Positions 14,861-17,798 of a stretch of DNA of 33,250 nt are shown piece by piece. This DNA is from Dehalococcoidia bacterium. Lineage in GTDB: Bacteria > Chloroflexota > Dehalococcoidia > Tepidiformales > Tepidiformaceae. The stretch spans positions 1 through 33,250 of the forward strand of contig SKSF01000060.1 in the NCBI GenBank assembly GCA_007118095.1. Direction: 5' to 3'. Below the pieces are notes generated by a model. That model was not told the DNA's origin. It worked only from the letters and a program-made list of their open reading frames with translations, and made no database searches. The number at the start of each line of letters is the position of its first letter. Position 1 is the stretch's first letter. The position numbers and the translations under genes are program-made.

Positions 14861-17317
14861 TCAGGCGGGTGTCAGTGCACCTGCCCGGACCCGCGGAAGG
14901 TTTCCATCGGCGTCGAGGAACTCGCTTACGATGCCACCCTGGAGCAGACTCGAGACGAAGACCGTCCCTTCCTTCACGCGCTCCGTAACGGTCGCCGGTG
15001 CTCGCACCACGGTAGTGCCGTCGGAAATTTCGATCTCGTCCTCGTCGTTGATGCCCAGCCGTTCGGCGTCTTCCTCGCTCACCTGGATGCGGTCGTAGCG
15101 GTGCAGCTTTTCCGCCTCCGGGTGGCGCAGCGCCGCGGCGTCGGCCGCGGTGTACAGATCGCGGCCTGTCACGATCTGCAGACCATCTCCGGTGCGGGCT
15201 GCCGCGGATACGGGCACCATCTTCGCCGTCCCGCTGCCCGGCACTTCGAGCCGCACGCCTTCGCCAACGAGCATGTCCCAGGCGGGCATGTACGCAGGGT
15301 TGGCTTTCGCAATCACCCCGAGCGCCGCATCAGGGTCGTCCGGTACTTGCAGGTCGAGGGCGCCCGCCAGCGCCTTGAGCGCGCCGAACAACGGCACCGC
15401 ATCGCCTTCTGGGAGAGTGGCCGGCGTTAGCACCTGGACGCGGAAGTCGCCCTGCGTGTACGTGCCGGCCGAAGCATAGGCACGCCCTTCTGCAATCGTC
15501 ACCGTCGCGGCCTTCGCTGTTTCGCTCAGGACGTTGTCGATGACGACAAGCGCGTTGAGGCGCTCCAGCGCCTCCGCCGCGCCCGGGATGTGCATTGTTG
15601 GATCTTCACGGATGACGAGGAGCCCGGACAGGTCGCTCAGCGCATTTGCCGTGGAGCTGTCGAGCAGCCCCGCATCGAGCAGACCGTAGGTGTTCACCTG
15701 CGGCGGCAGCACGATGAGGTGCTCTGACGCCTCCTGCCCGAAGAGCGCCGTCGCAACGTTTGCGGCGCCGCCCGCCATATCGGCCGACACGCGCGGGCTG
15801 ACCGGGTTCGGTGCGCACACGACAAAGGTCTCTTCGCGGGTGACACCATTGAGCTGTTCAACCGCCTGCTGGATGTCCGGGTCGTCGACGTTCTCCCCGT
15901 TCAGTGCGCGGGCCAGCAGATCCGCCGCCTGACCTTCCTCGCCGCCAGCCGGCCGGATCCACGTCGTCGCGAAGTCGACGAGTTCGCTGCGCAGGCTGCT
16001 GATGACGATGACCTGTGCATGCTGGTGTACTGCCGCATCCTTGATGCGGACGCTCATCACGTTGTGACTCTCTTCGATGTCGTCCTGCACGACCACGATG
16101 CCCTTGGCGGTTGGAATATTCGTCGCGTCCGTCGCCATCCGCCAGGTTCCAAGCCGCTCTTCCAGTGCCTCTTTCGCAGCCCGGACCACCGGCCCTTGCG
16201 ACGAGTCGGCCTTCGTGCCGAGCGCGTCGGCCGCAATCGTCTTCGCCAGGAGCGCTTCTTCGTTCGTGACGGTCTGGCCAACCAGCACGCCGACGGGCCC
16301 CTTCTGGGCCGCCGCCTTGAGTGCGGAGGCTGCCTGGGAGACGGCTTCGTCGATCGTTGCCGGGACCTGGATCGGCCCGCGCCTCACCTGGTGCTGCTGG
16401 AGCCGCTCGCGTGGCTTCAGCGAGTCGTAGTGATAGCGGCCGCGCACACAGATCTGGTCGCCACTGAAGGCGTTGCCGTCGCCGGGCCGCACGATGACGC
16501 CGCGGCCCTCGCGCGAGCCGAGCATGATGCTGCAGCCGACAGCGCAGGAATCGCACGTGGTGGATGTCCACTCGTCCGGCTTGGCCACCCACTTGTTGGG
16601 GTGCTCCATCAATGCGGCCGTGGGGCACACGTCGATGCAGGCACCGCTAAAGTCGCAGTTGCTCTCGTCGATTGCCCCGCCTGCGCCAAAGGCAATGCGT
16701 GTGTCCCAGCCTTTACCGCTTAGCGTGATGGCGCCCGTGTGCCGCTTCTCCTCGCATGCCCGCTGGCAGCGGGTGCAAATGATGCACATCTGCGGGTCGA
16801 ACTCCATGAACGGGTTCGCCCGGTCTGCCGGTGGATGCGGCATCGTATACCAGGAGCGTGTTTCGCCGACCCACGGTTCGTAGCCAGACATACCCACCAT
16901 TTCGCAGGTCGCCTGCAGCTCGCACCGGTAGTTCTTCGAACAGGTAAGGCACCGGTGCGTGACCACGTCGTCGCGGAGGCAGATATCCCCGGGGTGGCAA
17001 TGCTCGCGGCGATGGCACGTGAGGCAGCGGTCGCTGTGCGTCGCAAGGATCACGGAAAGGACGGCGCGCCGGGCTTCCTTCACCTCTTCCGTTGAGGTCT
17101 GGACCGACATGCCGTCCTGCACGACCGCGGTGCAGCTCAACTGCAGCCCGGGCGGCCCTTCGATATCCACAAGACAGGTCCGGCAGCCCGCGTAAGGCTT
17201 GAGACCATCGATGTAACAGAGGCTGGAGATGTAGAAACCGTTGTTCTTCAGCACCTCGACGAGAGGCGCGCCTTCCGGCGCCTCAATTGTCTGGCCATCT
17301 ACCGTTAGTGTTGCCAT
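14861..17317 (-). CDS. nuoG: NuoG-like NADH-quinone oxidoreductase subunit with tandem iron-sulfur module
   Basis: 818 residues. Ferredoxin-type [2Fe-2S] domain with C34, C45, C48 and C62. A cysteine-rich part follows, with two copies of RCLTC-x5-C-x5-C (97-113 and 122-138), the first preceded by H94 and the second by H121. One such site is the normal histidine-ligated cluster (N5). Next is a ferredoxin domain: C178, C181, C184, C188, then C221, S224, C227, C231. A cluster N7-like set follows at C255, C258, C262 and C290. The rest is the molybdopterin-oxidoreductase fold without an obvious metal ligand, as in NuoG. It passes electrons from NADH or ferredoxin towards quinone in complex I. Seven bases separate it from nuoI. 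Other complex I genes are not in the window. Confidence 0.88.
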   Translation of the reverse strand: MATLTVDGQTIEAPEGAPLVEVLKNNGFYISSLCYIDGLKPYAGCRTCLVDIEGPPGLQLSCTAVVQDGMSVQTSTEEVKEARRAVLSVILATHSDRCLTCHRREHCHPGDICLRDDVVTHRCLTCSKNYRCELQATCEMVGMSGYEPWVGETRSWYTMPHPPADRANPFMEFDPQMCIICTRCQRACEEKRHTGAITLSGKGWDTRIAFGAGGAIDESNCDFSGACIDVCPTAALMEHPNKWVAKPDEWTSTTCDSCAVGCSIMLGSREGRGVIVRPGDGNAFSGDQICVRGRYHYDSLKPRERLQQHQVRRGPIQVPATIDEAVSQAASALKAAAQKGPVGVLVGQTVTNEEALLAKTIAADALGTKADSSQGPVVRAAKEALEERLGTWRMATDATNIPTAKGIVVVQDDIEESHNVMSVRIKDAAVHQHAQVIVISSLRSELVDFATTWIRPAGGEEGQAADLLARALNGENVDDPDIQQAVEQLNGVTREETFVVCAPNPVSPRVSADMAGGAANVATALFGQEASEHLIVLPPQVNTYGLLDAGLLDSSTANALSDLSGLLVIREDPTMHIPGAAEALERLNALVVIDNVLSETAKAATVTIAEGRAYASAGTYTQGDFRVQVLTPATLPEGDAVPLFGALKALAGALDLQVPDDPDAALGVIAKANPAYMPAWDMLVGEGVRLEVPGSGTAKMVPVSAAARTGDGLQIVTGRDLYTAADAAALRHPEAEKLHRYDRIQVSEEDAERLGINDEDEIEISDGTTVVRAPATVTERVKEGTVFVSSLLQGGIVSEFLDADGNLPRVRAGALTPA

Positions 17318-17324
17318 GCCATTC

Positions 17325-17798
17325 CTAGAGTCGATGGAAATCTGCGTCCGGGTCGGGCGCCTTCATCCCGTTCGGGTAAGTGTTGTCGTTCTTCTCGAGG
17401 AACTTCTTCGCTTCCTCGGTCAGCTTGTGTTTATCGCGGTACATCTCGTCGAAGACGTACACGGCGTCGTCCATCGGGCCACCCGGCTGAATGGCCTCGT
17501 ACGGGCAGGCTTCGGTACAGAGCCCACAATACATGCACACACGGAAGTCGATCTCGTAGCGGTCGACGTTCCGGCGGCCTTCGCCGTCCTGGCTGGTGGC
17601 GACCAGGATGCAACCGTCGGGGCACGCCTGCGCGCAGGTGCTGCAGCCGGTGCAGCGCTCTTCGAACCAGAGCAGGTTGGTCCGCGCGTTCACTTTGATC
17701 GGCCGCGTCTGCTCGGGATACTCAAACGTGGCGACAGGGCGAAACATCTGGCGGAGCGTGAGCCCCATCCCTTTCGCGATGCCCTTGCCGTAAGCCAT
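17325..17798 (-). CDS. nuoI: NuoI-like ferredoxin subunit of complex I
   Basis: 157 residues. Two canonical 4Fe-4S motifs, C49-x2-C52-x2-C55-x3-C59-P and C88-x2-C91-x2-C94-x3-C98-P, with the NuoI-type start (GLTLRQMFRPVATFEYPEQ) and end. It carries clusters N6a and N6b on the peripheral arm between NuoG and the quinone site. The next gene is nuoG, so the two are one unit. No membrane subunit gene is near. A TAGACT box lies 47 bases upstream of the ATG. The N-terminus is plausible and length is near that of the family (150-180). Confidence 0.9.
   Translation of the reverse strand: MAYGKGIAKGMGLTLRQMFRPVATFEYPEQTRPIKVNARTNLLWFEERCTGCSTCAQACPDGCILVATSQDGEGRRNVDRYEIDFRVCMYCGLCTEACPYEAIQPGGPMDDAVYVFDEMYRDKHKLTEEAKKFLEKNDNTYPNGMKAPDPDADFHRL

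Follow-up and report, generated by a model that had tools for sequence, protein, structure and literature searches.

The NuoI-NuoG gene pair and its domain organization

The window analysed here, the whole 33,250-nucleotide stretch of Dehalococcoidia DNA, encodes on its reverse strand an 818-residue NuoG-like protein (14861..17317). Seven base pairs upstream, on the same strand, lies the gene for a 157-residue NuoI-like ferredoxin subunit of the 2x[4Fe-4S] type (17325..17798). Among the 30 relatives with upstream DNA, nuoI likewise precedes nuoG in the same orientation in 29, with a gap of 20 bp or less in 22 of these 29; L021 is without nuoI, and the sequence of L014 is cut off at this point. 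None of the other readable genes of the window, named by eye (xer-, topA-, efp- and xseA-like among others), is a nuo gene, and no nuo membrane gene was found near nuoI-nuoG, either here or in those close relatives that were examined.

The NuoG-like protein matches models for Fer2, NADH-G iron-sulfur, ferredoxin, molybdopterin Fe4S4, molybdopterin and dinucleotide-binding domains. Its parts are ordered as Fer2, N5 module, extra module, two-cluster-type ferredoxin, and molybdopterin-type Fe4S4 and catalytic-fold domains. Fer2 (PF13510) scores above its cut-off, and the NADH-G iron-sulfur model reaches 26.1 bits, slightly below its cut-off of 27. The ligands of an N1b-type [2Fe-2S] cluster (C34, C45, C48 and C62; 17132..17218, reverse strand) are present in 30/30 family members, and an N7-type [4Fe-4S] site (C255, C258, C262 and C290; 16448..16555, reverse strand) was recognized by PF04879 and by alignment. 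TIGR01973, the NCBIfam NuoG equivalog model, gave 208.3 bits and did not reach its cut-off of 470.05. Within the molybdopterin domain, the region aligned with the active-site Cys/Sec of formate dehydrogenases (FDH) contains no cysteine; some relatives, L057 and L062 among them, retain the FDH catalytic cysteine region.

The ferredoxin domain (16625..16786, reverse strand) carries the sets C178/C181/C184/C188 and C221/S224/C227/C231, one cysteine having been exchanged for serine. Residue 224 (16646-16648) is serine in 26 of 30 close sequences, the window protein included, and all eight cluster cysteines are kept in 28/30 of the wider family. Because of this serine, the window lineage may have lost or modified one ferredoxin cluster; the second cluster may be Ser-ligated, of the 3Fe type or absent.

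Five close relatives (L006, L012, L017, L019 and L021) have about 150 extra C-terminal NuoG residues, looking like a helix-rich add-on domain. In the complete genome of Tepidiforma flava, nuoG (L030, 9001-11767) is split over two frames by a frameshift or a sequencing error.

Two cysteine modules with unequal ligand sets

The pattern C-x2-C-x5-C-x5-C occurs twice in the NuoG-like protein at an offset of 25 residues. By translation the first module is RCLTCHRREHCHPGDIC (residues 97-113, preceded by H94) and the second is RCLTCSKNYRCELQATC (residues 122-138, preceded by H121), in exact agreement with the original prediction of two modules of the same layout. In 20,000 shuffles of the whole protein, two copies of C-x2-C-x5-C appeared once and the seven-cysteine spacing never.

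As a correction to that prediction, the two modules are not equivalent. The H-x3-C spacing of canonical N5 is present in the first module only (H94-x3-C98-x2-C101-x5-C107; 16997..17038, reverse strand; 30/30). In the second, H121 (16955..16957, reverse strand) stands one residue from C123, and the position equivalent to the N5 histidine is V119, a valine in 30/30, so that histidine is missing from the second copy. Neither H121, which is histidine in 14/30, nor C138 (16904..16906, reverse strand), which is cysteine in 10/30, is a conserved ligand. On this conservation pattern, the second histidine-ligated site that had been proposed was rejected as unsupported.

Eight positions are each conserved in 30/30 family members: H94, C98, C101, C107, C113, C123, C126 and C132, with H94 to C132 spanning 16922-17038. 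The simplest grouping would assign H94/C98/C101/C107 to N5 and C113/C123/C126/C132 to a new site (C113-x9-C123-x2-C126-x5-C132; 16922..16981, reverse strand; 30/30), predicted to be a four-Cys [4Fe-4S] site.

Conservation of the extra site

A whole-protein search of 400 Chloroflexota genomes gave matches at E <= 1e-20 in 257. The family comprises the window protein and 29 loci from the whole-protein search, in which the motif was not used as a seed; its members range down to ∼30% identity and come from many families of Chloroflexota. Both modules are present in 29/29 of the non-self loci returned as best-scoring matches. They are likewise present in 31/31 loci of a six-peptide search, a set biased towards the module because one of the six seed peptides falls inside it. 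In 30 close sequences, consisting of the window protein and 29 of these 31 loci (L030 and L031, broken or partial, were excluded), mean column identity is 98.7% over residues 94-138 versus 78.2% elsewhere, and 39/45 columns are invariant versus 167/773 elsewhere. The first cysteine set, whose lack of conservation in close relatives had been named as a reason to abandon the original prediction, is conserved in them.

The invariance of the eight ligand positions in 30/30 members is best explained by an extra cluster site. Of the two forms in which the prediction had been cast, an extra [4Fe-4S] cluster is likely, and a relocated one is not supported. Sequence data give good support to the extra four-Cys site, and its most likely occupant is a [4Fe-4S] cluster.

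AlphaFold2 models were built for the full protein (30 sequences), where pLDDT was below 50 over residues 85-245, and for residues 1-320 (23 sequences), where mean pLDDT was 39.9; with such low values neither model locates the clusters. A Foldseek search with the full model returned FDH and complex I NuoG folds, which confirms the FDH/NuoG fold only.

Relation to known NuoG-like proteins

In the PDB, the sequences that match the window protein best belong to FdsA-type formate dehydrogenases; other NuoG-like and molybdopterin-type proteins come next. FdsA, the alpha subunit of NAD-dependent formate dehydrogenase (PDB 6tg9, 9wxb), has the same domain order but a single N5-type module, and the window protein lacks its active-site Cys/Sec region. 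With NuoG/Nqo3/NDUFS1 of complex I (PDB 4hea_3, 7nz1_G) the window protein shares Fer2, N5, ferredoxin and the molybdopterin-type fold, ligands of the N1b, N5 and N7 types, and the lack of a catalytic cysteine. It differs from them in a 25-residue insert with four invariant cysteines after N5, in a fuller cysteine set in the ferredoxin domain, and in a TIGR01973 score below cut-off.

A NuoG-like iron-sulfur input domain is likewise described for BfuA, HydA and StnC of electron-bifurcating enzymes in the available excerpts of PMC9304861 and PMC10482914; these excerpts make no mention of a doubled N5 site. In the Bfu family the partner of the NuoG-like BfuA, BfuB, bears extra clusters B2-B5, as far as the accessible text goes (PMC9304861). 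The partner NuoF in the window's genome (G000:C155), unlike that of Bfu enzymes, has no recognizable extra iron-sulfur domains: it contains only 51-kDa, SLBB and N3-type domains, no Fer4 or thioredoxin-type match was found in it at E <= 0.001, and its terminal cysteine sets appear incomplete by eye. This composition speaks against bifurcation as outlined in the accessible part of PMC9304861, and against membership of the Bfu electron-bifurcating family with a NuoG-like BfuA.

A profile of the double module retrieved 66 distinct PDB sequences at E <= 0.1. Among the 60 of these matches that were listed, none reached C-x2-C-x5-C of the second module, the best stretch ending at or before profile position 52, and no solved structure with both modules was found among them. 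Nor was a description of a doubled N5 site found in the accessible portions of the literature searched, which was mostly open-access.

Origin of the extra module

Twenty weaker matches were fetched, of which 10 have a single module and three the double module; the long frames of the remaining seven loci contain no match to a loose form of the motif. In the 10 single-module NuoGs, which come from the same phylum (an example from Chloroflexota is HPLDCPVCDKGGECPLQ), H-x3-C-x2-C-x5-C is followed immediately by xLQ. The stretch that runs from H94 to the ELQ-like tail measures 39 residues in the window protein and 14 in the single form. As the single form runs the N5 motif straight into xLQ, the double form represents a 25-residue insertion, which separates the ELQ tail from the last N5 cysteine. 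Within each family member, the two copies agree at 4 to 8 of 20 residues. The extra site probably arose when the N5 loop was duplicated in tandem as a 25-residue unit, the histidine ligand of the second copy being replaced by C113, which closes the first copy.

A tree of 43 rows, computed with the module cut out and leaving out the seven weaker loci without a loose-motif match, requires a minimum of two switches between the single and the double form, its rooting being uncertain. With this number of changes, one gain followed by one loss and two separate events both fit.

Distribution of the double module

A strict DNA pattern spanning H94 to C132 was found in 35 of 400 Chloroflexota genomes, with zero matches to the reversed-pattern control in all rows listed. 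The match in G124, counted among the 35, is spurious, being a low-complexity TGT repeat. The pattern is present in 26/54 genomes of the same class, the window's own included, and in 9/346 genomes of other classes, the spurious one included; it fixes the spacing, so that variants spaced otherwise escape it. As the original prediction had allowed, the double module is no peculiarity of one genome but a variant that occurs across part of the Chloroflexota. None of 31 pattern matches in viral contigs resembled the window protein, all being of low complexity or having internal stops. A 62-residue double-module query had no match among 72,556 plasmid records; with the whole protein as query, 337 plasmid records matched, all at below 60% identity and counted irrespective of module content.

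Three kinds of protein carry the double module: NuoG-like proteins with NuoI, FDH-like or NuoG-like proteins behind NuoE-F, and an Nfn-like protein. The second kind is represented by seven loci (L077, L079-L084) in which E-F-G with the double module stands without nuo membrane genes in the DNA fetched. The Nfn-like protein (L185) contains Fer2, ferredoxin and FAD/NADPH domains. Its double-module input domain is joined to a GltD/Nfn-like FAD domain, and L184 appears, by eye, to be a fusion of Nfn-like and FDH-like parts with a double-module input domain.

The seven E-F-G loci and L185 show that complex I is not the only setting of the site. No NuoI was found near the soluble-type E-F-G and Nfn-like carriers, so the site must have another role there, for example as an added exit or side cluster. 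The extra [4Fe-4S] cluster of the window protein might lie off the main electron path, in a side pocket or exit inherited from soluble NuoE-F-G or formate-dehydrogenase-like ancestors, a reading to which we attach serious weight, if somewhat short of an even chance. The catalytic cysteine region retained by some relatives would fit such an ancestry, and complex I itself has known off-path clusters, N7 and N1a, according to the accessible parts of PMC8357420 and PMC10212512. Against it, residues adjacent to N5 in sequence are likely also to be its spatial neighbours, on that side of the chain which faces NuoI.

Complex I gene complement of the genome

The window's genome, estimated to be 98% complete, was found to encode one NuoG-like protein, one NuoF with NuoE beside it, two NuoD and two NuoB; subunits were named by eye from translations, with Pfam support for NuoB, NuoD, NuoE and NuoF. 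One gene cluster (contig C111) reads A-B-C-D-H-I-J-K-L-M-N and is without E, F and G. A second (C208), which ends at the contig end, reads A-C-D-H-J and is without B or I. In 5/5 related genomes this second cluster reads A-C-D-H-J-K-(small protein)-L-M-N, and tblastn detected no B or I in it in any of the five. The second nuoB is an orphan, and the nuoE-nuoF pair lies elsewhere, apart from both clusters.

The NuoG-like gene complements a nuo set without B and I, but stands outside that cluster. A second cluster lacking B and I, together with an orphan nuoB and a lone nuoE-F, indicates that the protein is probably the NuoG of a dispersed complex I, and the gene sets are best accommodated by a dispersed 14-subunit complex with its I-G pair in the window. 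The assignment to complex I in the original prediction thus gains support from the gene complement of the genome, but none from a nuo operon around the gene. In three intermediate relatives (L073, L074 and L076) nuoB is located near nuoI-nuoG, and in L078 the double-module NuoG is part of the run E-F-G-A-B-C-D-H-I-J-K-L. That the NuoI-NuoG pair is instead a stand-alone dehydrogenase or ferredoxin-linked enzyme outside complex I appears unlikely to us: the lack of nearby nuo membrane genes in the window and the close relatives examined would suit it, but both the second complex I cluster without B and I and the proximity of B to I-G in the intermediate relatives argue the other way.

A comparable situation is described, in the available excerpts of PMC3150298, for Chloroflexus aurantiacus, which also has two complex I gene sets, one of them dispersed, loose and without a local nuoG; no extra cluster is described there. 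In the accessible text of PMC5736913, a deep-sea Chloroflexi genome has an 11-subunit Nuo and a separate nuoEFG operon.

Two further features of these gene sets were observed. A conserved protein of about 60-65 residues is encoded between K and L of the second cluster (L187-L191; L067, 12931-16727). The NuoI of complex I number 1 (L068, 15079-16596) has 505 residues, including an extended C-terminal tail made up of near-identical repeats (LTDAEGNPLSERKIRAKRMRAEKQAKEA...).

Nature of the extra site and its possible place in the electron path

Four-Cys sites can bind zinc, and the additional cysteines are compatible with zinc or another structural metal that takes no part in electron transfer. 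We consider this improbable, as the unit copies an iron-sulfur loop, keeps the C-x2-C-x5-C spacing, lies inside an all-iron-sulfur domain and still shares residues with the first copy in each member. That only a single cluster is formed, the other module being a vestige or an alternative ligand set, would accord with the N5-like character of both modules and with PF10588, whose best match is the second, but is very improbable given eight ligands invariant in 30/30 proteins from many families, where a vestige would decay.

On balance, we regard it as moderately probable that the window protein is the NuoG of the N-module of a second, dispersed complex I, with N5 and an extra cluster site derived by duplication of the N5 loop. 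In this NuoG, electrons from NADH would pass along FMN-N3-N1b-N4-N5 and then to the extra cluster, which would be either en route to N6a in the NuoI of the same gene pair or a side branch. In known complex I, N6a resides in NuoI (available text of PMC10212512), and the chain of seven main-path clusters is described as conserved (accessible parts of PMC10212512 and PMC8357420). The step from N5 to N6a is its longest, at 14.1 Å edge to edge; in the accessible text of PMC5511282 and PMC5938582 it is discussed as possibly rate limiting, with the histidine ligand of N5 proposed as a means of easing it. Judging from its place in the sequence, an additional cluster directly following N5 could occupy this gap and shorten the jump, although soluble-type relatives near which no NuoI was found have the site as well. 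It is conceivable, though on present evidence rather doubtful, that complex I has here gained a [4Fe-4S] cluster between N5 and N6a that bridges the longest, possibly rate-limiting jump, by way of a cassette shared with soluble NADH- and formate-type dehydrogenases.

The NuoG input domain appears here to have altered its cluster number through tandem duplication. If the proposal is true, a natural complex I with an extra cluster near N5 would offer a test of whether the N5-N6a gap limits the rate, and the same complex would also test why N5 carries a histidine.
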